A stretch of 36,022 nucleotides of DNA from the NCBI GenBank assembly GCA_030730365.1, contig JANQVJ010000004.1, positions 13,856-49,877 of the forward strand, given 5' to 3'. Made by a program: the position numbers and the translations under genes. Positions 11,578 through 35,292 of the stretch are shown here, piece after piece; position 1 is the first letter of the stretch; each line of letters begins with the position of its first letter. The stretch is from Verrucomicrobiales bacterium. Its GTDB lineage: Bacteria > Verrucomicrobiota > Verrucomicrobiia > Verrucomicrobiales > DEV007. The notes beneath the pieces are model-generated. The model was not told the DNA's origin, ran no database searches, and worked only from the letters and a program-made list of their open reading frames with translations.

Positions 11578-11593
11578 GAAGCTTTTTCTTTCC

Positions 11594-12874: not shown

Positions 12875-12946
12875 GGAGCGGTCCGCCCGGCGGATTCTCT
12901 CCTTGCAGTTATCGCGGCGGCTCGTTCATTGTCGCTTCACTGCCCG

Positions 12947-19343: not shown

Positions 19344-20608
19344 GCAGGGAGATCGAGGTGTGGGCAGACTGGCGGGAACTCGGTGGGGCTGCCTGCATGG
19401 GGATTCTTCGGGCATCTGAAGCCCGGGGCAAGGAAGTGTTCGCTTTTGAGTATGACCGAAATTGGTTAAAGGGAGAATCTTTCCGTGATCTGGACCCGGA
19501 TCTGCAGCTTTACGAAGGGCCGCAGTATCTAGATGCAGAAGAGCGTCCCAACTTCGGATTGTTTCTCGACTCTTCCCCCGACCGGTGGGGGCGACTGCTG
19601 ATGAAGCGGAGAGAGGCGGTCAGGGCTCGGTCAGAGAAGCGAGCCGAAAAACGGCTGCAGGAGATCGATTTCCTGCTGGGAGTCCACGATGAGCAGAGGG
19701 TGGGGGGCTTGCGCTTTCGCGACCCGGCAGCCGGGAATGAATGGCAATGCGACGATCCAACCATGGTCACTCCGCCCTGGACGTCTCTCCGCGAATTGGA
19801 AAACGCGAGTTGGCAACTGCAGAGGGATGACGTCGAGCAGGATCCCGAATACCGGCAGTGGTTGAGCCTACTGATGGCTCCGGGTTCCTCGCTGGGAGGT
19901 GCCCGCCCCAAGGCTGGAGTCAGGGATGAGCGTGGCGAACTCTGGATCGCAAAGTTTCCCGGGCGCAACGATGAGCGGGACATGGGTGCCTGGGAGATGG
20001 TGGCCCACGAACTGGCGATGCAGGCGGGGCTAGAGATGGCCGAGGCACGGATGGAGCACTTCGGGGGACGGCAATACACCTACCTGGTTCGTCGCTTCGA
20101 TCGCACTCCCGGCACGCAGGGCAAGGAGCGGATTCATTTCGCATCGGCGATGACATTGCTCGGGTATAACGACGGGGCCGATCATACCGAAAGAGTCAGC
20201 TATCTCGAACTGGTGGAATTGCTCATCCGGCAGGGAGCGGAACCGGACCGTGACTTACACGAATTGTGGCGTCGCATCGTGTTTTCGATCGCGATTCGGA
20301 ATACCGACGACCACTTGCGAAACCATGGCTTCTTGCTCACCCCGGACGGATGGAGGCTATCACCAGCCTTTGATCTCAACCCGGATCCGGACGGCTTGGG
20401 GTTGAATCTGAACATTTCCGAGACCGACAACTCGCTCAGTTTCGATCTGGCTCTCGAGGTGGCTCATCATTTCCGTCTTGAGCCGGACCAGTCGAACCAG
20501 ATCCTGAAGGCAATCAAAGATGCCGTGGCGGGATGGCGCGTTGAAGCAAGTAAGCGAAACATTTCCCGATCCGAACAGGATGCAATGGAATTGGCGTTTC
20601 AGCAGTGA
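19340..20608 (+). CDS. hipA: HipA-like serine/threonine kinase toxin
   Basis: This 422-residue protein is near the normal length for HipA. The N-terminal domain (WADWRELGGAACMG, then PDLQLYEGPQYL and FLDSSPDRWGR) is followed by the kinase core. It shows the Gly-rich loop GSSLGGARPKAG (about 181-192), the strand LWIAKFPGRND with the ATP lysine, the catalytic loop NTDDHLRNHGF (N321, D323) and the metal site LSPAFDLNP (D345). E. coli HipA phosphorylates glutamyl-tRNA synthetase and causes persistence; relatives use other targets. The motifs look intact, so it is probably active and held in check by the upstream HipB-like protein. The overlapping start fits strict co-translation. Confidence 0.88.
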   Translation: MSREIEVWADWRELGGAACMGILRASEARGKEVFAFEYDRNWLKGESFRDLDPDLQLYEGPQYLDAEERPNFGLFLDSSPDRWGRLLMKRREAVRARSEKRAEKRLQEIDFLLGVHDEQRVGGLRFRDPAAGNEWQCDDPTMVTPPWTSLRELENASWQLQRDDVEQDPEYRQWLSLLMAPGSSLGGARPKAGVRDERGELWIAKFPGRNDERDMGAWEMVAHELAMQAGLEMAEARMEHFGGRQYTYLVRRFDRTPGTQGKERIHFASAMTLLGYNDGADHTERVSYLELVELLIRQGAEPDRDLHELWRRIVFSIAIRNTDDHLRNHGFLLTPDGWRLSPAFDLNPDPDGLGLNLNISETDNSLSFDLALEVAHHFRLEPDQSNQILKAIKDAVAGWRVEASKRNISRSEQDAMELAFQQ

Positions 20609-20865: not shown

Positions 20866-22110
20866 CTACCAATCCAGAACCCCTGAACTGGTGGCGAACG
20901 AGTCCGTCTCGATCCCGATCTCCTGCAGCGTCCGGACGTAAAGATTGCCAAGGGGGGTGTTGTCGCCGGTGTCGTAGGTTCGGTAGCTTCCGTGATCGAG
21001 CCCGCCCCCTGCCAGCAGGATCGGATTGTTCCGGGGATCGTGCGCGGCGGCGTTGCCGAGATTGCTTCCGAACAGGGTCATGGTCTGATCGAGAAGTGAG
21101 GTTCCGGCTTCTCCCTGGGCTTTCATTCGAGTGAGCAGATCCGCAAAGCAGCCGAGGATGGCCCGCTCGATTTTCATGAGCTGGTCGATCTTTTCCGGGT
21201 CCCGACCGTGGTGCGAAAGATTGTGGTGCTCGGCTTCAACTCCATTGACCAGGGGAACGCCGTGATTGTTCTGGATCACAATGCTGATCACCCTGGTGGA
21301 GTCGGTCTGAATGGCCAGGGGAACGAGTCCGAACAGCAATTCGATGCGTCCGACGAGGTCGGCCTTGTCGGGAATGTCCCGCGGCGCCTCAGCGTCGACC
21401 GCCGGTCTTGGACGATCGAACCAGGCCTCGGCTTCGGTGATGTCGCGTTCAGCCTGACGGACGGCTTCAAAGTAAGCATCGAGGCGGTTGCTGTCGGTGG
21501 GCGACGAGGTTTTGAGAAGCCGATTCCGCTGGTCGCCAAGCGAGTCGAGAATGCTGCGGCCGTCGCTCAGCTTTCGCTTCTCTCTCTCAACCTCGTCTGC
21601 CTTTCCCTGGAGGAAGAGCTTGGCAAACACTTCCGAGGGGCGATCCATCGCCGGTATCATGACCCCGCTGCCGGTGTAGGACTGGCTCATCGGCCCATCG
21701 CTGCTGAGAGAAAGGGAGGGGAATCGGGTCACGGAGCCGAGTTTTTCCGCGGCGAATTGATCGACCGAGATCGAGTTCTCGAATCCGTCCCGCCCCGGAT
21801 TGCGGGCAGCGGTGAGCCAGGTCATTTCGCAGGCGTGTTCGCCGCCCTGGTCGGGATGGGAAAGCCCGGAGAAAACGGTGAAATCGTTTCGGTTTCGCGC
21901 GAGAAGAGCCAGGTAGTCGGAAGGCTCGTAGTCCGGTCCCGGTGCCTTCGGGTAGAAGGCGGGCGGATAGAAACCGAGCGTGTTGCAGATGAACAGTGCC
22001 CGCTTCGGGGGTGTTTCGGCCACTTTTCCGAAGGCTTCGAGCATCGGCAGGGCGAGGGAAATACCGGACGCCTTGAGAAAGGTTCTTCGATCGAGGATGG
22101 GGGAGGGCAT
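20866..22110 (-). CDS. DUF1552 protein, Tat-exported
   Basis: This 414-residue protein begins with a Tat-like signal (DRRTFLKASGISLALPML). It then follows the DUF1552 pattern: FICNTLGFYPPAFYPK, DFTVFSGLSHPDQGGEHACE, WLTAARNP, SISVDQFAAEKLG, NNHGVPLVNGVEAEHHNLSHHG and NPILLAGGGLDHG. DUF1552 proteins are abundant in Planctomycetes, Verrucomicrobia and Myxococcota and are nearly always paired with a DUF1592-type cytochrome protein, as here (17 bp apart). The fold is thought to be alkaline-phosphatase/sulfatase-like (DUF1501 relatives); the reaction is unknown. It is the last gene of the minus-strand block. The ATG at 22110 gives the signal. Confidence 0.88.
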   Translation of the reverse strand: MPSPILDRRTFLKASGISLALPMLEAFGKVAETPPKRALFICNTLGFYPPAFYPKAPGPDYEPSDYLALLARNRNDFTVFSGLSHPDQGGEHACEMTWLTAARNPGRDGFENSISVDQFAAEKLGSVTRFPSLSLSSDGPMSQSYTGSGVMIPAMDRPSEVFAKLFLQGKADEVEREKRKLSDGRSILDSLGDQRNRLLKTSSPTDSNRLDAYFEAVRQAERDITEAEAWFDRPRPAVDAEAPRDIPDKADLVGRIELLFGLVPLAIQTDSTRVISIVIQNNHGVPLVNGVEAEHHNLSHHGRDPEKIDQLMKIERAILGCFADLLTRMKAQGEAGTSLLDQTMTLFGSNLGNAAAHDPRNNPILLAGGGLDHGSYRTYDTGDNTPLGNLYVRTLQEIGIETDSFATSSGVLDW

Positions 22111-22127: not shown

Positions 22128-24548
22128 TTACTTGTTCCGAAAGAGTTCGCTCAGGACCACCGCGTGTATCATCCCGCGCAGCCCGTAGTCATCGGTCCGA
22201 GCCTTCTGAAGCATTCGATCCAGTTCTTCTCGATCGGCAAACTGGATCTCGGCTCCGGTGGCGTAGGCGACGAGTTGCCGGAGGAAGTTCCGCGCGACCT
22301 GTTCCTCCTGCTTCAGGAGGAACTGTTTGAATTCGCGAATACCCCCGAAGGAATCGCCGTCCCGAGTCGTCCCGGAAGGGTCAACCGGTTGGCCGAGTCG
22401 ATACTCATTGATTCGGCGACCGAAGAGGTCCCCGTCGGGCCGGTCGCCCTCTCCGGTGGACCGGTAGCGGGTCCGGAACCCGCCGATCGGGTCGAAACTC
22501 TCCAGCGCGAATCCCGGGGGATCGATCTCCCGGTGACAGCGGTTGCAACTTTCGCTGCTGCGGTGTGCCGCCAGCAGTTCCCGGATCGTGGTGGCGCCAC
22601 GGGTGTCCGGTTCGACGGCCCCCACCCCGGGCGGAGGTGGACTCGGAGGTGTTCCCAGCAGGTTGCCGAGGACAAAGTTCCCCCGCGGCACCGGCGAGGT
22701 GTTGGTGCCGTTGGCCGTCACCTTGAGGATGCTGGCCTGGGTCAGGATACCCCCGCGCACACTGTTGCCGGGCAGGGATACCTTGCGGATTTCCAGTCCC
22801 TCGATACCGGGAATCCCGTAGTGTTCGGCCAGCCTTCGGTTTAGAAAGGTGAAGTTCGAATCGAGCAGGTGGCGCACGCTCCGATTGTTCCAGATCAGTT
22901 CGGTGAAGAAGGCATGGGTTTCTTCGATCATCGCCTGGCGAAGGACGTCGTCATACTCTGGGTAGAGCTTTTCGTCGGGGCTCGTCGCATCGATGTCCTC
23001 GAGTTCGAGCCATTGATCGAGGAAATCCTCCACGAAGCGCTGCGACTTTTCGTCGTCGAGCATTCGATCAATTTCGGAGGAGAGGATGTCGGGATTGTCC
23101 AACTTTCCCTCGGCGGCGAGATGAAAAAGCTGGTCGTCCGGCAGGCTCTTCCAGAGGAAATACGAGAGCCTGGTGGCCAGGGCATGGTTGTCGAGCATGC
23201 CGGGCTCCGCCTGAAGATAGAGAAACTCCGGCGAGGCGAACATCGCCCGCAGCACGACGCGAAGGGCATCCTCAAATCCGCGTCCTTCCGCAAGCGCGGG
23301 CCGAGCAAGGTCAGTCCAGGTTTCCGCCTCATCGTCGCCGAGGGGGCGGCGGAAGGTGCGTGGGCCGATCCGGCTGACGACGTCGACGATTCGGGAAAGC
23401 GGCTTCCCTTGGAGAACGATTTCATGATGGCCGCCTGGGCCGACCCGATACTCCACGTCGCCCAGCAGATCGCGGGTCCGTTCCGGAGGCCACTGTTTCT
23501 CGAGCGGTCCTTCAATCGTCATGCGGCGGATGGCCAGTCCTTCGCCGGGGTAGTCTTTCGCACCGAAAGAGAAGACGTTTTTCCCGTCCGGCAATTCATC
23601 CAGATCGGCGGGAGCGAGAAAGAAATAGTCTTCCGGGGTGAAAAAATGCTCCAGTTCGACTTGGCATGGTTGGTCCGGATCGAGCTGCCAGCTTCCGATC
23701 AACTCGGTGTTCCCGGCCTGGTCGTTGCCCCGGTAGAGGCAGAAGGTCACCGGCGTTTTTGCCTGGTAGGTGAAGGCTTCCGCTTCGATTCGATAGTTGC
23801 CCGCAACGGGAAAGCGGATTCCCATGTTGTCGGTTCGAGTCGTGTGGGGACGTTCGTCAAAGGTGACGAAGGCGTCGGGTGTTCGCAGGACGGTGTTGCC
23901 GCCCTGCAGCAGTTCGCGTTCGAACCACATCCGCGTGTAGGAATGATTTCGATAGTCGATTTCCCGGGGTTCGCTCCGGGGTTTCGGGCCCAGTTCGATC
24001 GCCTCTTCCAGCGCCGCATCCGCTGCCGCGAGGTAGCTGCGGATGTGGACGGCCGAGATTCCCTGGTCGGTGGCGATGGTGTCGAAGGTGGAAGAAGCCG
24101 ATTCCGGGGGCAGCTTCGAGGCGAGATCTCCGCCAATCCCGAGGAGGTCGTGCAGGGTGTATTCGTATTCGGTCCGCGTCAGCCTCCTCACCGGGACGCG
24201 ACCGTTTTCCCTCTGTTGAGCCAGGCTGGTTTTCCTGAGATGCCGAGACAAGGCATCAAGAGCCGCCTGTTTCGCGTTGGGTTCTGGGCGGGGTCTCTTT
24301 TCCGGCGGCATTTCTCCGGAATCGATCTGATTGAACACCTTTTCCCACATTCGGAAGGCTTCCGGATCGGCCAGATCGAAGCTCAGTTCGTCGAAGTTCA
24401 ACGCGGTCTTGGTATCGGAGTCATGACAGTCGAAGCACGAGGCCTCGACGAGTGCCTCGACGGTTTGCCGGGGCAAGGTTGCTTCGTCCTTGGCAGAGCC
24501 GGAGCAAACCAGCAGCAGGGAGGAAGCAACTGCGAGGGCGGGTTTCAT
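22128..24548 (-). CDS. DUF1592/DUF1588-type cytochrome c protein
   Basis: This 806-residue secreted protein has a signal peptide (ALAVASSLLLVCSGSA). It then has an N-terminal cytochrome-like domain with CFDCH at 38-42 and GEMPPEKRPRP, and a DUF1587 segment (LTRTEYEYTLHDLLGI). A carbohydrate-binding-like part comes next, followed by DUF1595 and DUF1592 helices (RRPLGDDEAETW, ATRLSYFLWKSLPDD). The DUF1588 motif RGGILTQASIL, then TSPVPRGNFVL, precedes a second CxxCH (CNRCH, 668-672), and a DUF1585-type end finishes it. This is the standard architecture of the PVC family always found beside DUF1552. It is probably a periplasmic haem protein passing electrons; the substrate is unknown. Gaps of 20 bp to the sulfatase and 17 bp to the DUF1552 gene imply one transcript. 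Confidence 0.9.
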   Translation of the reverse strand: MKPALAVASSLLLVCSGSAKDEATLPRQTVEALVEASCFDCHDSDTKTALNFDELSFDLADPEAFRMWEKVFNQIDSGEMPPEKRPRPEPNAKQAALDALSRHLRKTSLAQQRENGRVPVRRLTRTEYEYTLHDLLGIGGDLASKLPPESASSTFDTIATDQGISAVHIRSYLAAADAALEEAIELGPKPRSEPREIDYRNHSYTRMWFERELLQGGNTVLRTPDAFVTFDERPHTTRTDNMGIRFPVAGNYRIEAEAFTYQAKTPVTFCLYRGNDQAGNTELIGSWQLDPDQPCQVELEHFFTPEDYFFLAPADLDELPDGKNVFSFGAKDYPGEGLAIRRMTIEGPLEKQWPPERTRDLLGDVEYRVGPGGHHEIVLQGKPLSRIVDVVSRIGPRTFRRPLGDDEAETWTDLARPALAEGRGFEDALRVVLRAMFASPEFLYLQAEPGMLDNHALATRLSYFLWKSLPDDQLFHLAAEGKLDNPDILSSEIDRMLDDEKSQRFVEDFLDQWLELEDIDATSPDEKLYPEYDDVLRQAMIEETHAFFTELIWNNRSVRHLLDSNFTFLNRRLAEHYGIPGIEGLEIRKVSLPGNSVRGGILTQASILKVTANGTNTSPVPRGNFVLGNLLGTPPSPPPPGVGAVEPDTRGATTIRELLAAHRSSESCNRCHREIDPPGFALESFDPIGGFRTRYRSTGEGDRPDGDLFGRRINEYRLGQPVDPSGTTRDGDSFGGIREFKQFLLKQEEQVARNFLRQLVAYATGAEIQFADREELDRMLQKARTDDYGLRGMIHAVVLSELFRNK

Positions 24549-24568: not shown

Positions 24569-26716
24569 TTACTCTTTGGAAGCTCCGACTCCCTTGCCTG
24601 GCTGTAGCGGCTGGGGTTTGATCCGCCGGGTCATGTTCTCGACCACGGACTTACGAAACCCTGCCTCTGAAATCGAGTGGGCCCATTTCAATGCCGCCTC
24701 CGGATCTTTCGAAACCAGCCCATGGGCCAAACCATTGATCGCGAAGTCCTTGTCCCGCGCATCGGTCAGCGACTCCAAGCGCTCCGCGACAGCTTCGAGT
24801 TTCACTCCCCCGACTCCTCCTCCCAGTCGACCGAAGGCAGCTGAGAGAGCGGCCCCACGGGTCTTGGGATTGTCCTGCTTCAGGGCCAGGTCAACCGCCT
24901 CGAAAGGAGCCGGATCGAACTTCCCGGATTGGATCAACTTGACGGTTTCCTCTCCCGGCCTCATCTGTTCGGCCTGCTGACGGGTTTCGGCGCCTTTTGC
25001 CTTCTCCGCTCGCATCCTCTTCAGCTTCTCTTCTTCCTCTGGAAACGCGGCCAGATAGAGTTCAATGGATTCCTTTTCGGTGAACTTCCCGGCTTCGACC
25101 ATGGACTTCAATTTCGCGTCCATCGCCTTTTTCGGATCGGCAGGAGTCCCGGTATCGGTTGCCGCGGGCTGACGTGGTGAATTCACCGCGGACGACACTT
25201 TTTCAGGTGAGGGCCACTCGGGAGCATCCGCCATGACATTCCGGTAGATCGCAGCGGCTTGTTCTTTCAATCGGGCAACGAGTTTGGGCTGCTGGTTCGC
25301 AATGTTGTTTTGCTGACCGGGATCATTGGAGAGGTCATACAGTTGAACGCGGTCGATCCCGCTCTTTTTGAGCTCGGGAATCCAGGACTCCTGGAAGTAG
25401 TACAACTTTCGGTGTTGCTCCTTCAGTTGATTGGCTTCGGGATTGGCGAAGTTCCCGTTGAACATGCGGGAGCCAAGATCCATTCCGCCCAGCTCTTTCT
25501 CAAGATCATCGCCGAGGACTTCTTTGACTTGCTCCATGAGGCGATCGGCGGTTTTAACGTCGATTGGTGATTTCGCAGTGGAGGAGGCGAAAAGTGTATG
25601 GTTACCGACTCTCATGACCATGTTTGCCTCGCTCATCCAAAAGAGGGGCTGATGTCGCTCGAAGGTTCCCGTCCCAGTGAGCAAGGGGGCGAGGTCGGAG
25701 CCGTCGAGATAGACGCCTTCGGGTTTGTCGATGCCGATCAATCCGCAAAGGGTGGGGAGGAGGTCGACCGCTCCGGCCGGTTCGTCCTCGACGCGACCAC
25801 CGGGGATCCCGCCTTTCCAGTAGAAGATGCCCGGGACGCGATGTCCGCCTTCGAAGAGCGCCCCCTTCTTTCCGCGCAGTTCACCGTTTCGCTCCTGCAG
25901 GTAGCTGCCGTTGTCCGAGGAGTAAATGATGATGGTGTTGTCCAGCTCGCCGAGTGTTTCCAGCCTGGCAACGAGTCGCCCGATGGCCCGATCCGTGTTG
26001 TCGATGGTGCCACTGTAGATTGCTGCCTGATCGTCGAGCGCACCATACTGGGAAACGATCTCATCGGGCGCCGCGATCGGGTCGTGGGGTTCGTTGAACC
26101 AGAGATTGAGAAAGAAGGGTTCGTCGCCGTCGCGCTTTTGATCGAGCCAGGTGAGGGCCTCATCGACGACGATCTGGCAGGAATAGCCTTTCATTGTACC
26201 AACCCGCTGTCCATTGCGCAGAAAGCCGGTCGGGTCTTTGTGGCTGGGGCCCGGGCCGTTGACGAGGCCGAACCAGTAGTCGAAGCCATGGTCGGCGGGG
26301 GTGGGATTCTCGCGATTGTGGACGGGCATGCCGAGGTGCCACTTGCCGAAGTGGGCGGTGGCGTAACCGTTTTCCTTGAGGATTTCGGCGATGGTCGTTT
26401 CGCTCTCTAAAAGGTGCATACGGTGAAAGCGCTCGTCGAGGACGGAGTAGACTCCGGCGCGGGGGTTCTGGCGACCGGTCAGGAAGGTGGCACGCGACGG
26501 TGAGCAACTCGGAGCTCCCGAGTGGAAGTCGGTGAAGCGCACGCCACCGGCGGCCAACTTGTCGAGGACGGGAGTCCTGACCGGACCGCCGTAGCAGCCA
26601 ATGTCGCGGTAGCCGAGATCATCGACGAGCAGGGTGATGACGTTCGGCTGGTTGTCTTTGGCTAGACCGGTGCCAACCAGCAGCAGGGAGAAGGAGAATG
26701 TCAGGATGAGTTTCAT
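24569..26716 (-). CDS. Secreted type I sulfatase with C-terminal helical module
   Basis: This is a 715-residue arylsulfatase-like protein with a signal peptide (ILTFSFSLLLVGTGLA). The core to about residue 500 has the metal-binding LLVDDLGYRDIGCYGG (Asp32, Asp33), the formylglycine motif CSPSR at 71-75 in SCSPSRATFLTGR, HFGKWHLG, and IIYSSDNG with ELRGKKG. A formylglycine-generating enzyme elsewhere would be needed for activity. It probably removes sulfate from polysaccharides outside the cytoplasm. About 200 residues are added at the C-terminus: module A (526-568, ESIELYLAAFP) is shared with the large fusion protein, and module B (600-699, AAFGRLGGGVGGV, DFAINGLAHGLV) is shared with the 298-residue protein, both further upstream in the same block. 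It lies 74 bp after the second sigma gene. Confidence 0.9.
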   Translation of the reverse strand: MKLILTFSFSLLLVGTGLAKDNQPNVITLLVDDLGYRDIGCYGGPVRTPVLDKLAAGGVRFTDFHSGAPSCSPSRATFLTGRQNPRAGVYSVLDERFHRMHLLESETTIAEILKENGYATAHFGKWHLGMPVHNRENPTPADHGFDYWFGLVNGPGPSHKDPTGFLRNGQRVGTMKGYSCQIVVDEALTWLDQKRDGDEPFFLNLWFNEPHDPIAAPDEIVSQYGALDDQAAIYSGTIDNTDRAIGRLVARLETLGELDNTIIIYSSDNGSYLQERNGELRGKKGALFEGGHRVPGIFYWKGGIPGGRVEDEPAGAVDLLPTLCGLIGIDKPEGVYLDGSDLAPLLTGTGTFERHQPLFWMSEANMVMRVGNHTLFASSTAKSPIDVKTADRLMEQVKEVLGDDLEKELGGMDLGSRMFNGNFANPEANQLKEQHRKLYYFQESWIPELKKSGIDRVQLYDLSNDPGQQNNIANQQPKLVARLKEQAAAIYRNVMADAPEWPSPEKVSSAVNSPRQPAATDTGTPADPKKAMDAKLKSMVEAGKFTEKESIELYLAAFPEEEEKLKRMRAEKAKGAETRQQAEQMRPGEETVKLIQSGKFDPAPFEAVDLALKQDNPKTRGAALSAAFGRLGGGVGGVKLEAVAERLESLTDARDKDFAINGLAHGLVSKDPEAALKWAHSISEAGFRKSVVENMTRRIKPQPLQPGKGVGASKE

Positions 26717-26790: not shown

Positions 26791-27411
26791 CTAGCTGTTG
26801 AGGTGGTGTCGCAATGAAGATTTGAGATTGGTGCGCGCCCGAAAGAGAAGTTTCTTTACGGCCGGCTCGGTGGTGGAGAGGCGTCTCCCAATTTCGAGGT
26901 AGGGCATTTCCTCATTTCGACGCAGCAGCAGTGCCGTCCGTTGTCGGTCGGGCAGTGCCTCGATGGCTGTCTCGACGGCTGCTTCGAATTCGGAATGCTG
27001 CGCGTAGGAAGCCGGGCATACCGCGTGGCTATCGGTCACGACGTGGTAGTTGTACAGTTCGCGAGCTTCAACCGAGACGGTGGGTTTTCGCTGACGTCGT
27101 CGTGTTTCGTTGTAAACGAGATTGCGGGTGATCGTGAAGAGCCAGGTGTTGAACTGCGCTGTCGGCTGGTAGCGGGGAGCCGCCTTCCAGACTCTGAGGA
27201 ACACTCGCTGGGCGATGTCCTCTGCTTCGAATGCGGACCCTAACATTTTGGTGACGGTTCCAATCACGGCGAATTGGTGGGTCTCAACGAGAACTTGAAA
27301 GGCCCCGACATCGCCCTGGCTGACCTTGGTCATCAGTTCGATGTCCCGCTGGTTCGCCTGGCGTTTTTCTTCTTCATCTTTGGACTCGGGGGGATGGGCA
27401 ATGGAATTCAT
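26791..27411 (-). CDS. ECF-type RNA polymerase sigma factor
   Basis: This 206-residue protein has a sigma region 2 (AFQVLVETHQFAVIG, SAFEAEDIAQRVFLRVWK, FNTWLFTITRNLVYNETRRR) and a region 4 helix-turn-helix (ALPDRQRTALLLRRNEEM, YLEIGRRLSTTEPAVKKLLFRAR). These are diagnostic for small sigma-70 factors of the extracytoplasmic-function class. No anti-sigma gene lies beside it; the nearest FecR-like regulator is about 6 kb upstream in the same block. It is 31 bp after the large fusion gene and 74 bp before the sulfatase, so it may be both a product of the long operon and the driver of a promoter in front of the sulfatase. The ATG at 27411 gives an N-terminus of normal length. Confidence 0.9.
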   Translation of the reverse strand: MNSIAHPPESKDEEEKRQANQRDIELMTKVSQGDVGAFQVLVETHQFAVIGTVTKMLGSAFEAEDIAQRVFLRVWKAAPRYQPTAQFNTWLFTITRNLVYNETRRRQRKPTVSVEARELYNYHVVTDSHAVCPASYAQHSEFEAAVETAIEALPDRQRTALLLRRNEEMPYLEIGRRLSTTEPAVKKLLFRARTNLKSSLRHHLNS

Positions 27412-27442: not shown

Positions 27443-30400
27443 CTATTCCTTGGGTTGGAAGGAGAGAGTGGTCACCGGAGTGGAGGAATCGTTCACCTGA
27501 ATGGTGGTTTCCCGAGTGCCAAGGAGTTCATGCCAGGCGGCGAGCGTGTATTCGCCGAGAGGAAGACCCGGGATGGTGAATTTTCCTTCGCTATCCGTCA
27601 CCGCAAAGAAGGGATGCTCCATCACCCAGAAGTGGGCCGTCATCCACGGGTGAAAATCGCACTTGATGGTGATGGGGCCTTCCGCCGTCTCGAAGGTTTT
27701 CTCGCGTTCGGGAGAACCGGCAGGCTGGGCGATATTGAAGGGGCGGTTCTTTTGGGAAAGGGAACGGATGTTGTGAATGAAAGGATCGCCGTTCTTCATC
27801 AGCACCTCCTGGCCGACTCTGAGGCCTTGGACGCGGGGACGGAAGATGGATCCCTCCTGATCGATGACGGCGGCTTCGCCTGGCGTCGGATAATCGCCCT
27901 CGGGCGGATTCTTGAGATAGACGAAGACGTTGGCGAGACCGCCGGATTCGCCGATGAGGATGGCTTCATCGAGCGGTGCCGCTCCGTCATGGAGCTTCCG
28001 GCTTGCTTCATCGAGGGGAAGTTGTCTGGGCTTGGGACGAGGCCCCTCGAAACGGACCGTGCCAGTGAGAGCCGACGAAGGTCCCTCTTTCCCGGGCTTC
28101 TCTTTTGGCGTCGCTGTCACGTCGACAACCTCGGCGCTGAGAATGAGATCGCGGAAGGAGTCGTCGCCGACTTCCTTCAAAGTCCGCTGGAAGGCGATCA
28201 GGTTTGGGAGATCCGCTTCGGTGATCTGAAGGGCGGCATAGTCGGGGTTTCCACTTTCCGCCTTCGCCATCTTTCCGCGAAGAATCGATTCGAGATCGGC
28301 TGTCGCCCACTCGCGATTTCGCAGGGTGCCGCCGGATGAGATCGCAAAGTCCGCCGGTGCATGGCATGCGGCGCAGTTGCTGATCTTCGGATCGCCCTCG
28401 ACCCCGAGGAAGGTCTTGAAGCCATCATAAGCGGCGCGGTCCATCCCCGGCGATAGCTTGAGCAGGACACGACCCTCCTGGTTGTCGAGCCGGCCGTGGA
28501 TGCGCCCGGCGAAATCAAAGGCGGATTCGCCTTCGAGCGGTTTGTCGGGAATACGGTTCACATAGACAAACGCGTCGAAGAGCGAGCGGCGTGGATTGTC
28601 GAGCCGATGAATGCCGGTCTTTTGCTCCATGTTCTCAGACTCCTTCTTCGGTCCGCCGGCAGAAGCCGGCGCTACGGGTTTCGGCTTCGCTGTAGTGTCG
28701 GCTTTCGCCGACGGATACGAGTCTCCCCAGGCGACGAAATCGAGGATCTTGATATACACGTTGCCGGGCTTCTCCATCGGTATATCCAACTTGCGCCGCT
28801 GGTTGAAGAGCTGACCGACTCGATCGCGTTGATCTTCGGGTATGGTTTGCATGATGCGTTCGACGTAGGCCTGATGCTTGGGGCCGCCGCCCGGATAGTC
28901 CTTCGGCAACTCGCGGGCCTCGATTTTTACGAACAATTCGCCGAGCTTCTCCGCCTGCTTCGCGAGCTCCGCTTCGGTGAGGATGCCCTGTTCATCGAGG
29001 CTGAGTTCGATCGGGATCAGCTTCACGCCGCCCATTTCCTTTTCCTCCTTGTCGAGAATCTCCAATTTGATGATTTCGCCGCAGGCATTTTCGATGTGCC
29101 GAACCGGCGCGTTGCTGGTGCTGGTCCAGACATTGCCTTCGGCGTCGAACTCGATCTCGCGCGTGTAGCTGACCTGCGTGGGCAGGCGAAACTCGACCAG
29201 ATACTCGGTTTCCGGGTTGAAACGATACAGCGTGTCGTTGCCCGTCCCGCAGATCCAGACCATGCCGTCCGGCGCGACATTGAGCGCGTAGGGGATCTGG
29301 TTTTGGTAGTTGGGAAGCGGATAAACCGTCCACTCCTCGGTGTTGGGATCGAACTTGCCGAACACGCCGGAACCGAAGCCCGGAACCCAGACCATGCCAT
29401 CCGGTGCGACGTGCAGGCGGCGAGGTCCGCGGAAAGGCGGGTTCCATTCGGTGATGTCGCCGTCGGGCGCCTTTGGATCGATCCGGCCGATGCGGTTGCC
29501 GTTGAGTTTCGAATACCAGATCTTCCCGTCGACCGGTGAGTAGTCGAGACCGTAGGGAGTGACGCCGTTCGACTCGCCTTTGCCGCCGGCCTTGACCTGT
29601 CCGGCGTCGAGGAGGTGGAATTCCTTTCGCTCCAGCGTCTTCGGGTGGAGGCGGAAGACGGAGTTTCGGCCCGCGTCGGTGTACCAGATGAAACTTTCGG
29701 GGTCCTTGGGATCGACGCGCAAGGTGTGCGGCCACGATCCGCGTTCGGCCGGAGGTTCGGCGCTGGAAACAATGGTGTATTCCTTGGTCTTGAGATCGAA
29801 TTTCGCCATCTCGCCGGAGACGCAGAGAGTGAGCCACATCTGTCCCTCGTTGTCGGGCTCGATCGAATGCGGGCCTTGCGAGCCACGTGGAAGTTTGTAA
29901 TAGATCCGCTCGGTCGTCTCAGGGTCCAGCGTCGCCGTGTACTGCTTGCCAATGTGGACGACGTAAGCCAGGCCGTCGTCGGGACCGATGTCCAGATCAT
30001 GGAATGAGGCCTCATACTGCTCGCCCATTTCCCATGCCGTGATTTTCGCATTGGCGGCCATCCCGCTAGGCGCTGGAGAGGGTTGGTAAGGCGGCCATTT
30101 TTTCACCGCTTCATCGCTATAAGCGTCGAGAATGCGCTGGACGATTGTTTCCTGCGTGTGCGGGTAGAGCCCGCCGAATCCATCCATCCGCCGAATCATC
30201 GTTTCCCAGTCGACCGGTTTTTCCGGCGTGCGGAAGCCCCGTGTTCCGATCTGATGGCAGTAGGCGCACATCATCTTGAAGTTGAGGCGGTCCCTGACAT
30301 TGTCAAAATGCAGCATCGACAAAGCATCGTCCCCCGGACGCTGATATTCGAGGTCCATGCCCGTCGCCGGCTCCATCGAAAACGCCAGATCGTTCGCGCC

Positions 30401-32506
30401 AGTCTTCACGTCTTCGATCCAACGATCGAGCTGTCCGAGCAAGCGCGCGCGGATCCGGAAATTCCCCTCGGCCAGTTCGTCGATCCGGAAAGAGCCGTCC
30501 GGCTGGGAAAAAACCGAGGTGCTCATCCGACGCTCGGTGTCGAAGGCCGACACCATCACGCCGCCCATCGGCTTGCCGCCCTGGTCGCTGACCAGGCCGG
30601 AAACCGACCCGCGTCCGCCCGCCGGTCTCCCGGGTTCGCTCCAGATTTCGGCCTTCTCGAGTTTCTTGATGTGGGGATTGGCCTTCTTCGCCGCGACGTC
30701 TTTCGCCGACGACTGGTGCGCTGGCGGTTGGGTTCCGCCGGCTGTGGCGGGTGCTACGGAGCGCACGTAGTCGAGGATTCGGATGAAAGATTCCCCCTTA
30801 TTCTCCATGTCGGGAAAAAGCCGCCGGTGTTCTTTCCAGAGCCGGCCGACTTCAGCGGCTTTCTCCGGCGGAGCGTTTTCGAACCACTTGTCGACAAAGG
30901 GCTGGTGCCCTTCGCCTCCGGGATAGTCCTTCGGGATTTCCCGCTTGGCGACTTGCTCGAGCAGTTTCCGGGTTTCCTCCTCGCCCTGCAGATCGGCGAG
31001 CCATCGCTTCACGTTTTCCTTCTCCCCGGGAAAGGCGCTGAGGTAGAGCTCGATGGATTCTTCACCGGTGATTTTTCCGGACTCGACCATTTTGCGCAGT
31101 TGGTCGCTGAGGGCTTTCTTCGGGTCGGCCGGAGGTGATTCTTTTTCAGGGGCGGGTGCCGTGGTCATCGGCGTTCCGCTCACCTTGCCGCCTTCCTCCA
31201 GACAGTAGAGAAAGCGCATCCCGCGGAGAAAGAGCTGCTTCCCGGAGAGGGCGGGAGAAGCGTGGAAGTTGTCATCGAGTTGGTTGGTGGCGAGGACTTT
31301 GAAATCCTTTCCGTGCTCAATCACCACGGTCGTTCCTTTGCGACCGGTGAAGTAGATTCGTCCGTCGGCCCCCACCGGTGAAGCGTAGATGTCGCCAAGG
31401 TCGGAAATCCTCGTCCGTTCGAACACTTCACCGCCGTCGGTTGCCTTCAGCGAGGAGAGAATGCCCTGGTTGGATTGGGTGAAATAGAGCTGGTCGTCGT
31501 AGAGAAGGGGCGACGGGACGTAGGGCGTGCCGCTGTCGGCCTTCCAGCGGATCTGGTCCGTCACATCGCCTTTGCCCGTGATCGGAATCGCGAGCAAGGC
31601 ATGGCCCTCATAGCCGCTCATGCAGTAAACTGTGTCACCCTGGACAATGGGACAGGGCGTGCAGTTTCCCGTCAGCCCGGTCGCCCACCAGAGGATTTCA
31701 CCGGTCTCGAGATCGTAGCTGCGGATCTGTTTCGAGGCGCAGGTGATCACCTGGGTGACCCCATCATGTACAGCGATGGCGGGGGTGGCCCAGGCGTTGC
31801 CCTCGTCGCGGTCCATCTTCCAGAGTGTCTTGCCGTTCGTTGCATCGAGACACTCGATGGTCGACTGTCCTGCATGATCGCGAACGAGGACGAGTTTCCC
31901 ATCATGCACCACGGGAGAGCTTCCCTCCCCGAGGCTGGCGCCGATTTTGGCAGGGCCGAGATCTCGCTCCCAGAGCTTCTTCCCCTCGAGAGAGTAGGCA
32001 AATAGGCCAGCCGAGCCAAACCAGCAGTAGAGTCGTTCTCCATCACAGAAGGGCGAAGCCGAGGCAAAACTGGCGTCCTTGTGATGGCCCTCGTGGGGAA
32101 CCAGAGTTCTCGCGACCTCCCGCCAGAGTGGCTTCCCAGTCCTGCGGTCGAAGCAAAGCACGACCATTTCAAAGCTGGTGTTGGGATACTTGATTCCAAA
32201 AACCCGTTCCGGCTGATCCTCCGGCTTCGGCAAGTTCGGATCAATCGTGCCGGTATCGATGGAGGTGGTAACGAACACCTTGTCTCCCCAGACGATGGGG
32301 CTGCCAGTGCCATTGCCTTGGATCTCGGCCTTCCAGCGGAGGTTTCGTTCCTCGCTCCACTCGACCGGCGGCTTCGCCGTGGGCGAGATGCCGTTGTTCT
32401 CGGGACCGCGCCACTGGTGCCAGCTTTCCGCAGGAGCTTGGGCGTGGCCAGCCGGGGCTATCAGGATCGAAAGAGTAAAGAGGAGAAGTGTGGGGCGGAT
32501 CTTCAT
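27443..32506 (-). CDS. Giant propeller / dihaem / blue-copper fusion protein
   Basis: This 1687-residue secreted protein has a signal peptide (LLLFTLSILIAPAGHA). In order come a PQQ-type propeller (about 25-440; WHQWRGPENNGIS); module A (460-502); module C (about 515-590; IPKDYPGG, FIRILDYV); a carboxypeptidase-regulatory-like beta domain (about 640-705); haem site 1, CAYCH (747-751); a virginiamycin-B-lyase-like propeller (about 870-1170; GLDYSPVDGKIWYSKLNGN, APDGMVW); a second module C (about 1195-1262); a cytochrome with CAACH (1378-1382); and a C-terminal cupredoxin-like domain (about 1460-1687) with H1578, C1616, H1619 and M1622 as likely type 1 copper ligands. These domains usually occur as separate proteins. 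It is probably an extracytoplasmic electron conduit. ATG 32506 starts the signal peptide. I see no frameshift. Confidence 0.82.
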   Translation of the reverse strand: MKIRPTLLLFTLSILIAPAGHAQAPAESWHQWRGPENNGISPTAKPPVEWSEERNLRWKAEIQGNGTGSPIVWGDKVFVTTSIDTGTIDPNLPKPEDQPERVFGIKYPNTSFEMVVLCFDRRTGKPLWREVARTLVPHEGHHKDASFASASPFCDGERLYCWFGSAGLFAYSLEGKKLWERDLGPAKIGASLGEGSSPVVHDGKLVLVRDHAGQSTIECLDATNGKTLWKMDRDEGNAWATPAIAVHDGVTQVITCASKQIRSYDLETGEILWWATGLTGNCTPCPIVQGDTVYCMSGYEGHALLAIPITGKGDVTDQIRWKADSGTPYVPSPLLYDDQLYFTQSNQGILSSLKATDGGEVFERTRISDLGDIYASPVGADGRIYFTGRKGTTVVIEHGKDFKVLATNQLDDNFHASPALSGKQLFLRGMRFLYCLEEGGKVSGTPMTTAPAPEKESPPADPKKALSDQLRKMVESGKITGEESIELYLSAFPGEKENVKRWLADLQGEEETRKLLEQVAKREIPKDYPGGEGHQPFVDKWFENAPPEKAAEVGRLWKEHRRLFPDMENKGESFIRILDYVRSVAPATAGGTQPPAHQSSAKDVAAKKANPHIKKLEKAEIWSEPGRPAGGRGSVSGLVSDQGGKPMGGVMVSAFDTERRMSTSVFSQPDGSFRIDELAEGNFRIRARLLGQLDRWIEDVKTGANDLAFSMEPATGMDLEYQRPGDDALSMLHFDNVRDRLNFKMMCAYCHQIGTRGFRTPEKPVDWETMIRRMDGFGGLYPHTQETIVQRILDAYSDEAVKKWPPYQPSPAPSGMAANAKITAWEMGEQYEASFHDLDIGPDDGLAYVVHIGKQYTATLDPETTERIYYKLPRGSQGPHSIEPDNEGQMWLTLCVSGEMAKFDLKTKEYTIVSSAEPPAERGSWPHTLRVDPKDPESFIWYTDAGRNSVFRLHPKTLERKEFHLLDAGQVKAGGKGESNGVTPYGLDYSPVDGKIWYSKLNGNRIGRIDPKAPDGDITEWNPPFRGPRRLHVAPDGMVWVPGFGSGVFGKFDPNTEEWTVYPLPNYQNQIPYALNVAPDGMVWICGTGNDTLYRFNPETEYLVEFRLPTQVSYTREIEFDAEGNVWTSTSNAPVRHIENACGEIIKLEILDKEEKEMGGVKLIPIELSLDEQGILTEAELAKQAEKLGELFVKIEARELPKDYPGGGPKHQAYVERIMQTIPEDQRDRVGQLFNQRRKLDIPMEKPGNVYIKILDFVAWGDSYPSAKADTTAKPKPVAPASAGGPKKESENMEQKTGIHRLDNPRRSLFDAFVYVNRIPDKPLEGESAFDFAGRIHGRLDNQEGRVLLKLSPGMDRAAYDGFKTFLGVEGDPKISNCAACHAPADFAISSGGTLRNREWATADLESILRGKMAKAESGNPDYAALQITEADLPNLIAFQRTLKEVGDDSFRDLILSAEVVDVTATPKEKPGKEGPSSALTGTVRFEGPRPKPRQLPLDEASRKLHDGAAPLDEAILIGESGGLANVFVYLKNPPEGDYPTPGEAAVIDQEGSIFRPRVQGLRVGQEVLMKNGDPFIHNIRSLSQKNRPFNIAQPAGSPEREKTFETAEGPITIKCDFHPWMTAHFWVMEHPFFAVTDSEGKFTIPGLPLGEYTLAAWHELLGTRETTIQVNDSSTPVTTLSFQPKE
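28655..28712. repeat. Paired GC-rich hairpins inside a linker of the fusion gene
   Basis: GCCGGC-AGAA-GCCGGC at 28655-28670 is followed by GTCGGC-TTTC-GCCGAC at 28697-28712. They form part of an in-frame Lys/Pro/Ala-rich linker (AKPKPVAPASAGG) after the second module C. A related sequence codes SVAPATAGG after the first module C (about 30738-30765). They look like dispersed palindromic repeats tolerated as linker codons. Confidence 0.6.
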
Positions 32507-32586
32507 GGTGTCGTCATATCTCCGCGCCGGGGCGGTAAATTCGGAAGAAAAACTGAAAAACATGACTCTTCGGTGAGACGATCGGG

Positions 32587-33483
32587 TCACCTTTTGCCGG
32601 TCCGGGAAGACTGCCCTTCGATCCGACGGGTCACGTTCCCCACCACGACCTTGCGAAAATCTTCCTGGGAGATGGAATTGGCCCATTTCAGGGCGGCCTG
32701 AGGGTCTGACCCAACAAGGCCGTGGGCCAATCCGTTGATCGCGAAATCCCGATCCCGCCCCGTCGGCAGGGTATTCAGTCGGGCCACGGCGGCTGTCCTG
32801 TCGACCCCGCCGACTCCTCCTCCCAGTCTGCCGAACGCGGCTGACATCACCGTCCCCCTGGCACTCGGATCGGTTTGCGAAAGCGCCACATTCACCGCCC
32901 CGAAGGGGGATTTGTCAAAGGCTCCTCCCTCGATCATTTTCGCAATGGCTTGCCCTCTTTGAACGGGATCCTCGATCTGGTTCACCCAATCAGGCAGAAT
33001 GTCCTCTGCACCAAGCGCGGCGAGTTGCTGAGCCTGGGACCCACCTCCGAAACGCAGCCGCTGACTCGCGTTTTTGATCAAATCCTCGTCATGATAGGCT
33101 CGGAACGTCTCGCCGCCTCCCCTTGCAATGATCGCGACCGCCGCTTCCAGATCGTCCATCCTTCGGACTTCGACCAAGCTCCACCCCAGATCGTTCGGAG
33201 AGTCCGAAATCAACATCGAGCGCCCGTCTTCGGTGTCGATGAAGGTGGCCATGGGACTCCCATCCAGGACGGCGACTCCGGTCAGGACGATCGTGCCGGG
33301 CAGGTCTAGCGAGCGGATGAAAGGCGAGCGCTCAAGAAGTCCCTGGAAGTCCTCGCGGGTAAGAGCTTGCGGAAGTGCGGTCTCGGCTTTGCCGGCCTCA
33401 CCGGCCCACGCCTCTGTCACGCAGGGAAGGAGGGAAGACGCCGCAGCAAGCGCCAAAGTACAAGCGAAATGGAAAGACTTCAT
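32587..33483 (-). CDS. Exported protein of unknown function with module B
   Basis: This 298-residue protein has a signal peptide (FACTLALAAASSLLPCVTEAWA). Residues 40-130 form a region I do not recognise (beta-rich to the eye: SLDLPGTIVLTGVAVLDG, FIDTEDGRSMLISD). A linker follows, and residues 189-288 are module B. Module B matches the C-terminal end of the sulfatase downstream over 100 residues without gaps, about 65 identical by my hand count (AAFGRLGGGVGGV, DFAINGLAHGLV, AALKWA). The ATG at 33483 overlaps the FecR-like stop by four bases (ATGA), so the two are translationally coupled. It may be the extracytoplasmic partner or sensor of that FecR-like protein, but this is inference from position. 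Confidence 0.75.
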   Translation of the reverse strand: MKSFHFACTLALAAASSLLPCVTEAWAGEAGKAETALPQALTREDFQGLLERSPFIRSLDLPGTIVLTGVAVLDGSPMATFIDTEDGRSMLISDSPNDLGWSLVEVRRMDDLEAAVAIIARGGGETFRAYHDEDLIKNASQRLRFGGGSQAQQLAALGAEDILPDWVNQIEDPVQRGQAIAKMIEGGAFDKSPFGAVNVALSQTDPSARGTVMSAAFGRLGGGVGGVDRTAAVARLNTLPTGRDRDFAINGLAHGLVGSDPQAALKWANSISQEDFRKVVVGNVTRRIEGQSSRTGKR

Positions 33484-34775
33484 TCGCTCAATTCGATGCC
33501 TTCGATCACCAGTCCTGCGTCCACCTTCGCCGTTTGAATCCAAAGCCAATCAATTTCGTGACCGGTCGGCGAATCGGGGAAATGGCTTCTCATCGGTTTG
33601 AAATCCTCGAGAGCGAGCGTGAACTCGAACCGACCGTTCCCATTCGGACGGACATGAACGCCATGGGGAATGGTATACTTTCCCACGGTACCTCCTCGGG
33701 CACGGTTGGTCCCGAAGCCCACATCGACCCGCAGTTCCCGATTGATCCGTCCCCGAACCAAGAACCGTGTTCCTGCTGCCAGTTGAACCGGAGGCAGTCT
33801 CCCCGCCGAAGGATCAAAGACCGCCGAGAAGAGCAGGATGGGCTCTCTCGGGTCGCCGGATTCCCCCCTCCAGAGATGCGGCATCGCGCGCAGACCATCG
33901 GGAACGTCTTCGCTGCCAGGCTCCCATTGACCCTGAAGCCGATCCCGGGGCAGTTCACTTTTCCAACTTTCGACGAAAGCCCGGCGAGGGCTTGCGGTGA
34001 ATTCCGTGCCCTGCTCGAGCGCCGCGACAACCACCTCCTCGGCGGCCACGTCTTCGACCTTGCCGTCGGCCAAGCGGGTGACACGGACCAATCCCTCATT
34101 GACCACGAAGCGGGCGGAAAACTCATCTGCCGTCACATTGAACCTGGTACCGAGAACGTCGGCTTGCGCGGATGGCGTGATGATCTGCATCGGCGAACCG
34201 ATCGGTTGCTTTGCGGCATCTATCGATAGATCGCCATCCCGAAGTCGGAGGACTTTCCGTCCTTCGATCAGGGAAATCGCGACGGAAGTCTGGCCCGACA
34301 GCGAAACGTTAGTGCCATCCGGGAACACCACTTCCGCCCAGGAATCGGGCGCCAGCGTTTCCAGGGTGCCGCTCGGCAGGGCGTCGCCGACCTTGATTCG
34401 AGAGATTGCTTCACCGCCGACGATCCACTTCACCGGACCATTCAGGTCGACCACGCGAACCACCGGCATCGGCGAGGGCGTATCATCGCGAAATAAGAAC
34501 AACGATGCGAGCGTGATTGCTGCCGCCGCAGCCAAGCCGGCGGCGATCCAGTGGCGCCGCCGGAGACGCCGGACGAGGGCCTCACCCTGTTCGCCGCCGT
34601 CCACTTGGACGAGGTCCGCGTGTAGGTCGAGGTAGTGCAGGTAGCGCCGCTGCTCTTCCGGATTGCCATCGAGCCGCCGTTCCAGCTTAAGCATCTCATC
34701 CGGCGTGATCGTTTCATCGACCAGTCGAGCCAGCAGGGGATCGAGATCTCGGTGTTTCGAATCTGAATCACGCAT
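33480..34775 (-). CDS. FecR-domain transmembrane regulator (anti-sigma type)
   Basis: This 431-residue protein has a cytoplasmic N-terminal helical part (LLARLVDETITPDEMLKLE, then NPEEQRRYLHYLDLHADL). One membrane helix lies at about 74-95 (WIAAGLAAAAAITLASLFLF). Then comes a FecR domain (about 105-255; ALPSGTLETLAPDSWAEVVF, DGTNVSLSGQTSV, LRDGDLSIDAA, VLGTRFNVTADE) and a C-terminal extension of about 170 residues that I do not recognise. FecR proteins carry an envelope signal to a cognate ECF sigma factor; the gene start overlaps the sigma gene by 8 bp, so the pairing is clear. The ATG at 34775 is preferred because the FecR-type N-terminus begins there. Its stop overlaps the next start. Confidence 0.88.
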   Translation of the reverse strand: MRDSDSKHRDLDPLLARLVDETITPDEMLKLERRLDGNPEEQRRYLHYLDLHADLVQVDGGEQGEALVRRLRRRHWIAAGLAAAAAITLASLFLFRDDTPSPMPVVRVVDLNGPVKWIVGGEAISRIKVGDALPSGTLETLAPDSWAEVVFPDGTNVSLSGQTSVAISLIEGRKVLRLRDGDLSIDAAKQPIGSPMQIITPSAQADVLGTRFNVTADEFSARFVVNEGLVRVTRLADGKVEDVAAEEVVVAALEQGTEFTASPRRAFVESWKSELPRDRLQGQWEPGSEDVPDGLRAMPHLWRGESGDPREPILLFSAVFDPSAGRLPPVQLAAGTRFLVRGRINRELRVDVGFGTNRARGGTVGKYTIPHGVHVRPNGNGRFEFTLALEDFKPMRSHFPDSPTGHEIDWLWIQTAKVDAGLVIEGIELSE

Positions 34776-35292
34776 CGCTCCAGCCCTCCTTTTGCAGAAA
34801 CTGCGCCACGCAATCGAGCAGCTGGCTCCGGATCTTCTCCAAAGCGTAGTAGAGCTTGTGCATGCTAACACCAGTCTTCTCGGCTTCCTCCTTGACGGCG
34901 CCGTGACGACCGTAGCGGAGGTAGACCCACTTTCGCTGCTGTTCGCTCAGTTTGCTGAGACAGTTGTCGAGCGCCTTGCGCCGAACCTCCATGAGGGGTG
35001 CTTCCTCGTCGTGGCGGTGGTGCAGCTGTTCCAGTAAAGAGTCGGAAAACACGAGTTTCTCCCGTGCCTGGCGCTGCCGCCACTTCAGAACTTCGAGATA
35101 AGCGAAGCGGATCGCCCATGGGACGAAGGGTCGCTCCGGGTCATACTGGTCCCACTTCTTCCAGAGGAGCACCGAGACATCCTGCAAGACTTCCGCGGCG
35201 TCCACCTGCCGGGGTATCATCATGAAAAGATACCGCTCCACCTCCGCCTGGTGGCAGGTCCAGAGTCTGACGAAATCGGAGGCGGGATCCAT
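34768..35292 (-). CDS. ECF-type sigma factor paired with FecR
   Basis: This 174-residue protein has sigma region 2 (FVRLWTCHQAEVERYLFMMI, AAEVLQDVSVLLWKKWDQYD, FVPWAIRFAYLEVLKWRQR) and region 4 (LSKLSEQQRKWVYLRYGRHG, then VKEEAEKTGVSMHKLYYALEKIRSQL). This is the small ECF subgroup with the AEVLQDV signature common in Planctomycetes and Verrucomicrobia. The 8-bp overlap with the FecR-like gene shows coupling. It is the first gene of the eight-gene minus-strand block and the gene nearest to attR. A 5-bp inverted repeat (CGCTA/TAGCG, 35306-35319) lies just before the start; its meaning is unknown. The ATG at 35292 is the start. Confidence 0.88.
   Translation of the reverse strand: MDPASDFVRLWTCHQAEVERYLFMMIPRQVDAAEVLQDVSVLLWKKWDQYDPERPFVPWAIRFAYLEVLKWRQRQAREKLVFSDSLLEQLHHRHDEEAPLMEVRRKALDNCLSKLSEQQRKWVYLRYGRHGAVKEEAEKTGVSMHKLYYALEKIRSQLLDCVAQFLQKEGWSDA

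Follow-up and report, generated by a model that had tools for sequence, protein, structure and literature searches.

The 36,022-nucleotide stretch of Verrucomicrobiales DNA that was analysed here (the window) contains a long reading frame in which two propellers, two haem-binding motifs and a copper domain follow one another, and this raises the question of whether the frame encodes one genuine protein and what such a protein could do. The minus-strand open frame 27443-32686 comprises 1747 codons when counted from the furthest ATG. The start at 32506 corresponds to M61 of the 1747-aa frame, and the aligned residue is the first residue of the ORFs in four related loci (L030, L031, L033 and L045). 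Since L030 and L033 are nearly identical, these loci provide three independent cases for a start at M61. Thus, 27443-32506 can be regarded as the right gene limits because the ORFs of the relatives begin at the equivalent position and the residues from M61 onwards resemble a signal peptide, as judged by eye. Residue numbers refer to the 1747-aa frame, and subtraction of 60 gives the numbering from the start at 32506. The gene and its parts, in order from the N- to the C-terminus, are:

27443-32506, minus strand: fusion gene, 1687 aa plus stop (start 32506, stop 27443; frame open to the ATG at 32686)
32435-32506, minus strand: signal peptide MKIRPTLLLFTLSILIAPAGHAQA, assigned by eye, without a lipobox cysteine
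31187-32425, minus strand: PQQ_2/BamB-like propeller 1 (Pfam, 1.1e-37; BamB chains are the top profile matches; limits approximate)
30953-31162, minus strand: linker module lnkB, also present in the C-terminus of the window's sulfatase
30722-30973, minus strand: rep1, a module of about 80 aa without a Pfam match, at the seam after propeller 1
30383-30625, minus strand: carboxypeptidase-regulatory-like beta domain 1 (Pfam)
30071-30349, minus strand: cyt1 domain, CAYCH at 30254-30268, without a Pfam match
29042-30034, minus strand: virginiamycin-B-lyase-like propeller 2 (Pfam; seven blades by eye)
28691-28945, minus strand: rep2, the module's second copy, located at the seam that follows propeller 2
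28142-28534, minus strand: cyt2 domain, CAACH at 28361-28375 (Pfam, profile; haem motif lost in some relatives)
27641-28099, minus strand: amicyanin-like cupredoxin (ligand H1638 at 27773-27775; C1676, H1679 and M1682 within 27641-27661)
27461-27640, minus strand: carboxypeptidase-regulatory-like beta domain 2 (Pfam)

A Pfam search returned five families along the chain, in the order PQQ_2, CarboxypepD_reg, Vgb_lyase, Cytochrome_CBB3 and CarbopepD_reg_2. The regulatory-like beta domain of the preliminary description of this locus is borne out by the CarboxypepD_reg match of beta domain 1 (1.9e-17), and beta domain 2 matches CarbopepD_reg_2 at 1.2e-7 with 32.1 bits, just below the cut-off of 32.2. 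The protein is apparently exported. The extracytoplasmic location proposed earlier agrees with the signal peptide, as judged by eye only.

The fusion is not confined to the genome from which the window derives. Examination of 60 sources (the window and the loci L030-L088, several of which represent one genome taken twice) revealed a PQQ propeller, cyt1, a Vgb propeller and a cupredoxin in one ORF in 11 distinct assemblies: the window, L030 (=L047), L031, L032 (=L067), L034 (=L056), L035 (=L048), L036 (=L051), L046, L049, L050 and L055. Nine of the ten relatives with a complete fusion are metagenome-assembled genomes (MAGs) of Verrucomicrobiota, and the closer names are Verrucomicrobiales, Akkermansiaceae and Roseibacillus. 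Pairwise comparison of the window with four relatives yielded pN values of 0.17-0.21 versus pS values of 0.71-0.73 across the frame, and pN was lower than pS in every segment tested; the synonymous sites are near saturation, which makes the dS values rough. This conservation, with pN below pS in all four comparisons, excludes a chance open frame, and every domain of the fusion is under purifying selection. The single unbroken frame of 1687 residues that had been reported is therefore confirmed as a real polypeptide. The cyt1-propeller-2 unit occurs in 15 of the 74 genomes of the window's family; in a sample of the phylum (387 genomes from 198 genera) it matched the window's own genome only, among the matches listed, and a plasmid search gave 12 records, all with less than 60% identity. 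The preliminary description knew of no protein with this domain order, and no published account of such a fusion was found among the literature matches listed (titles and beginnings of abstracts, with thin coverage of subscription journals). Likewise, the portions consulted of PMC5615132, PMC12758564, PMC10654088 and PMC8857213 do not describe it. One related contig deserves a separate remark: L033 (genome G004) and L030 (genome G041) share 9.1 kb with 99.9% identity, although the genomes have been placed in different genera, and the fusion copy of L033 ends abruptly at cyt1. Probably one of the two MAGs includes a contig that is stray or chimeric.

Which part of the chain is likely to be the working part? 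The best-conserved unit is formed by cyt1 and propeller 2, and it stands alone in Acidobacteria as proteins of 578-739 aa. In an alignment of 40 rows, each with at least 350 aligned positions and 12 of them closely similar acidobacterial rows, 127 of the 436 positions of the unit are invariant. The CXXCH motif of cyt1 (C807, C810, H811) is kept in 39 of the 39 rows that have letters there, so the CAYCH motif described before has proved to be constant. Moreover, M830, M834 and H843 of cyt1 are invariant (40/40 rows), and these residues are possible candidates for the sixth haem ligand. A profile search of the PDB with cyt1 gave no convincing solved relative, the best match being ScyA with an E value of 0.28. 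The virginiamycin-B-lyase-like nature of propeller 2 was corroborated by the Pfam family Vgb_lyase (4e-21; 75.5 bits versus a gathering score of 50), and the PDB alignments of this propeller cover parts only, in several registers. Propeller 2 has the invariant residues H896, H940, H987, Y1045, R1089, Y1133 and R1176, each of which opens one blade as assigned by eye. Blade-start positions line the funnel of propellers, and the residue set looks like a putative binding or catalytic site. Because the unit stands alone in Acidobacteria and has so many invariant positions, it is predicted to be an enzyme or a binding site and not solely a wire.

The second haem domain is a less constant feature. 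In the whole protein, cyt2 matches Cytochrome_CBB3 at 2e-6 (28.5 bits versus a cut-off of 27; 24.8 bits for the piece alone), and its profile matches cytochrome c6 at 7e-4 and, faintly, MauG. It shares 33-44% identity with parts of the MauG-type proteins encoded in L082 and L068; a Pfam search of the fusion up to an E value of 1 gave no match to CCP_MauG, and the stretch has one CXXCH only. This motif is present in 12 of 19 rows and missing from the other seven (rows keeping the NQEGR block), with at least three changes on the tree described below. The loss speaks against a fixed haem-haem-copper wire, and the two-haem wire was rejected as a fixed feature. Of the two haem sites of the preliminary description, the CAYCH motif has thus stood as constant, and the CAACH motif is optional.

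The copper motif, like the first haem motif, is constant. The ligands H1638, C1676, H1679 and M1682 (H1578, C1616, H1619 and M1622 when counted from the start at 32506) are invariant in all 19 rows of alignment A5, which were chosen from 27 rows. The eight rows outside A5 comprise six rows and one L053 piece with the same motifs, as well as another L053 piece that precedes the break. In profile alignments, the ligands coincide with those of the type-1 copper protein 5fc9 (2.6e-7) and of the amicyanin 1sfd (1.7e-5). Hence, the cupredoxin with its four named ligands was recovered in full, and the ligands match those of amicyanin. As for the expectation that the motifs lie in proper folds, sequence profiles place the copper motif in a cupredoxin and the CAACH motif weakly in a cytochrome, and the best value for CAYCH is the E of 0.28 mentioned above. 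Cytochrome c assembly genes and haem-copper oxidase genes were each found in 7 of the 7 fusion genomes searched.

The relatives also indicate how the chain may have been assembled. In a quick tree of the 40 cyt1-propeller-2 rows, which was calculated without bootstrap and rooted on Acidobacteria by choice, the PQQ-fused rows form one clade of 18 (SH-aLRT 99). This clade comprises 11 complete single ORFs, five rows that run into contig ends (L042, L052, L054, L057 and L059) and two interrupted rows (L053 and L058); L033 and L041 are truncated and were left out of the tree as too short. Outside the clade are forms with a cupredoxin but without propeller 1 (L039, L060, L061 and L062), planctomycete forms (L063-L066), a second L038 copy on a long branch and the acidobacterial outgroup. 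A count of four fused/unfused changes on the tree was set aside because some contig-cut and interrupted rows had been scored as unfused. In the planctomycete loci L064 and L065, one gene encodes a sulfatase joined to propeller 1 and cyt2, and it is followed by a gene for a cyt1-propeller-2 protein. Similarly, L038 from the window's family encodes a sulfatase joined to propeller 1, and this gene overlaps by 4 bp with the next one, again coding for a cyt1-propeller-2 protein. The earlier statement that the parts normally occur as separate proteins is consistent with the relatives, where they are encoded by separate and often neighbouring genes. A survey of the domain order across PVC loci and Acidobacteria revealed the parts separate, paired or whole, and the complete order is not unique to the window's genome.

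The seams of the chain carry the rep modules, which are helical-looking and have no relative in the PDB (best E 0.47). In related loci, rep modules form the C-termini of sulfatases, propeller-1-only proteins, propeller-2 proteins and small proteins. In eight distinct separate proteins (L035, L036, L038 twice, L041 twice, L043 and L045), the module and the protein share their final residue; in L061-L066 the module is followed by further sequence. In the fusion, rep1 and rep2 sit where the propeller-1 and propeller-2 proteins would have ended, and the modules can therefore be read as former C-terminal tags. Seven of the 11 complete fusions have a second rep copy, and no other copy was found in the window's genome (93.5% complete). 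As a part of our best reading as a whole, which we hold with moderate confidence, the fusion would have arisen stepwise from functionally linked genes. Two further arrangements were observed. In L041 (genome G025), at 13300-13750, the middle of propeller 2 is joined to the end of an HXXSHH gene, giving a hybrid frame of 1072 aa, which reflects either a deletion or a misassembly and fits the same gene order. Relatives at L043:9375-14388 and L037:8635-13617 have ankyrin repeats linked either to a sulfatase or to propeller 1 plus a CCP/MauG stretch.

The genes that surround the fusion point to a possible substrate class. In the window, they lie on the same strand as the fusion, in the following order around it:

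34768-35292, minus strand: small sigma-70-type factor (region 2 above cut-off; 77% identical to one upstream of the L035 fusion)
33480-34871, minus strand: FecR-domain protein, upstream of the fusion, start codon uncertain
32587-33549, minus strand: small protein of 320 aa, without a Pfam match, start uncertain
27443-32506, minus strand: the fusion gene
26791-27411, minus strand: second factor of the sigma-70 type, 31 bp downstream
24569-26716, minus strand: sulfatase with a CSPSR motif
22128-24548, minus strand: PSCyt1/PSD multi-domain protein (DUF1592, DUF1588, DUF1585, DUF1587, DUF1595)
20866-22110, minus strand: HXXSHH (DUF1552) protein

The successive gaps after the fusion measure 31, 74, 20 and 17 bp. 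The C-terminal module of the small protein is also present in the sulfatase and inside the fusions of L055, L057 and L049; this third common module suggests that C-terminal modules have been shuffled among the proteins of the operon. Downstream of the fusion, the sulfatase-PSCyt-HXXSHH set was found in 6 of the 18 rows of the fused clade (window, L046, L049, L052, L053 and L067), with a sigma factor gene in between in the window and L052. Four rows (L031, L050, L056 and L058) have a sulfatase gene only, and in three of these a contig end is close by. Six rows (L042, L047, L054, L055, L057 and L059) break off where the contig ends or shortly before. No such set lies just downstream of the fusion in L048 and L051. 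Seven of nine junctions in L067, L046 and L049 overlap by 1-4 bp, with start codons chosen mechanically. PSCyt genes also lie beside unfused forms (L038, L039, L060, L061, L063, L064, L065 and L066), and L062 has an HXXSHH gene only. The same partners were not found at the 14 acidobacterial loci (L068-L081): within the flanking DNA examined, sulfatase, PSCyt, HXXSHH, propeller 1 and cupredoxin genes occur in 0/14, and a dihaem gene lies beside the core in L068 only. Thus, the core does not depend on these partners everywhere. A CCP/MauG-type dihaem gene adjoins the cupredoxin gene in L082 and the cyt1-propeller gene in L068. In the planctomycete locus L084, a pair of free cupredoxin genes is flanked by an 8-CXXCH gene on one side and by a cytochrome gene on the other, and the cytochrome gene is followed by COX2-COX1-COX3. 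Oxidase genes beside free cupredoxins, which are about 33% identical, were found in one of five planctomycete loci (L084 of L084-L088); L085-L088 have no such genes in the flanking DNA examined, which is short on one side in L085-L087. Elsewhere in the window, a 1400-aa frame (12929-17131, plus strand) that combines ThuA and F5/F8 type C with a weak match to cytochrome c represents another multi-domain redox/carbohydrate fusion. A tryptophan-halogenase/FAD-type protein (11345-12874, plus strand) and a HipA_C protein (19340-20608, plus strand) had no visible link to the fusion.

Taken together, the sequences suggest, with moderate confidence, that the fusion is a periplasmic redox enzyme that contains its own wire and is partnered with the sulfatase, PSCyt/DUF1592 and DUF1552 proteins. 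Its probable role in some uncultured Verrucomicrobiales is electron transfer for a sulfatase-linked pathway. As cyt1, propeller 2 and the copper site are the steady parts, and haem 2, the linkers and the fusion to propeller 1 are variable, the core is interpreted as the working site and the copper domain as the exit. In the core, a c-type haem would lie beside the propeller, whose His-His-His-Tyr-Arg-Tyr-Arg set at the seven blade starts would bind a substrate or a metal. Electrons taken up at the core would be relayed, in some lineages via the second haem, to the copper domain, which would hand them over to the respiratory chain, most likely to a cytochrome oxidase; for this acceptor the indication comes from one locus, L084. 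The haem and copper sites would be loaded accordingly. Propeller 1 and the rep modules may hold the chain to its partners, which would act on a sulfated organic substrate. Such a substrate is suggested by the sulfatase partner, in line with the PSCyt-sulfatase neighbourhood described in part of PMC5615132. Our confidence was lowered by the 14 acidobacterial loci without partners and by the link to an oxidase in one of five loci. The single-chain electron conduit of the preliminary description thus survives as far as one polypeptide, a constant haem motif and a full set of copper ligands are concerned; it is weakened by the optional second haem and by the core that stands alone in Acidobacteria. 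A bolder proposal, which we regard as unlikely but worth stating, is that the cyt1-propeller-2 unit represents a new class of periplasmic haem enzymes with an active site of three His, two Tyr and two Arg residues in the funnel. It would be the oxidoreductase that is missing from the PSCyt/DUF1592-DUF1552-sulfatase systems of PVC bacteria, fused here to its own wire that ends in a natural high-potential amicyanin-like domain.

Among the alternatives, the best survivor is a scaffold, in which the propellers and rep modules would mainly hold the enzymes of the operon and the haem and copper would tune or sense redox conditions with little electron flux. The BamB-like character of propeller 1, the sharing of rep modules among the C-termini of the other proteins and the dispensable second haem fit this idea, but the invariance of cyt1 and of the copper ligands in the rows compared, and that of 127 of 436 positions in a unit that occurs alone in Acidobacteria, make it rather improbable.

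Clearly less probable is a PQQ dehydrogenase, in which propeller 1 with bound PQQ would oxidise an alcohol or a sugar and feed the haems and the copper. Propeller 1 indeed belongs to the PQQ_2 family (130.4 bits versus a gathering score of 27.6), its profile matches the PQQ-dependent dehydrogenases 7wmd (1.3e-7) and 9m2c (1.4e-7), and the model TIGR03075 for such dehydrogenases gives an E value of 0.013. However, the TIGR03075 score is 14.1 bits versus a cut-off of 480, and the profile ranks BamB first, ahead of tetrathionate hydrolase and the PQQ-dependent dehydrogenases. The score against the curated BamB model TIGR03300 is also low (36.1 bits versus 285.2). An adjacent-Cys pair and a WDxD motif are marks of quinoproteins, and the whole fusion protein contains neither. 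Furthermore, pqqE was found above the cut-off in none of the seven fusion genomes, a comparison without a positive control since the controls also gave 0/14. Imported PQQ may occupy propeller 1, but as an explanation of the fusion a PQQ dehydrogenase was rejected or is weak at best. The PQQ-type propeller described earlier is therefore retained as a member of the PQQ_2 family that resembles BamB, and PQQ binding by it is unsupported.

That propeller 2 is a streptogramin lyase conferring antibiotic resistance was rejected, as its match to the Pfam family is outweighed by scores of 39 and 41.2 bits against the NCBIfam models VgbA and VgbB (cut-off 600), by the haem domain ahead of it and by the lack of a recognised resistance gene among the scanned neighbours. 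Equally negligible is an artefact in which an assembly error or a frameshift has joined separate genes: the relatives' genomes of known type are MAGs, and two fusions are interrupted (L053 and L058) and two truncated (L033 and L041), but the identical domain order in 11 distinct, independent assemblies speaks strongly against it, as does the purifying selection throughout the frame.

The fusion connects one PSCyt-sulfatase gene set with both a haem-propeller unit and an electron-carrier-type copper domain. It leads to the prediction that the oxidation of a sulfated organic compound is coupled to respiration. In addition, the stages of a gene fusion can be seen side by side, from separate genes through pairs to the whole chain.

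Among the closest known systems are the PSCyt/PSD proteins of Verrucomicrobia. According to the part of the study that was consulted, PSCyt genes are numerous in some Verrucomicrobia, often lie beside sulfatase genes and were called intriguing, with functions unknown as of 2017 (PMC5615132). The sulfatase neighbourhood and the occurrence in PVC bacteria are shared with the fusion, which itself has no PSCyt or PSD domain; PSCyt is found in the neighbouring gene, and PQQ, beta-propellers and the fusion protein are not mentioned in that part of the study. Hydrazine synthase and its homologues, which occur in Planctomycetota and other bacteria, are also propeller-plus-haem proteins and also occur fused, as stated in the portion consulted of PMC12758564. 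No hydrazine synthase chain was among the PDB matches of the fusion. The CCP/MauG dihaem proteins include the relatives of cyt2 in L068 and L082, whereas the fusion has a single haem-domain remnant, at times without the haem motif. BamB and other PQQ_2 propellers are the closest profile relatives of propeller 1, which is here one module of a redox fusion and scores far below the TIGR03300 cut-off. With the virginiamycin B lyase family (PF24684), propeller 2 has the propeller sequence pattern in common, above the Pfam cut-off; it differs by its scores far below the VgbA/VgbB cut-offs, its own invariant residue set and the haem domain ahead of it. Finally, amicyanin works in methylamine oxidation, and the copper domain shares with it (1sfd, 1aac) the His...Cys-X2-His-X2-Met ligand set and the loop, as the profile match indicates. 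Even the Phe in the loop (CDFH) matches the best-scoring amicyanin sequence 1sfd (CTFH), which we take to be an engineered variant. However, amicyanin is a free protein of 105 aa, whereas the domain described here lies near the end of a chain of 1687 aa, with a beta domain behind it.
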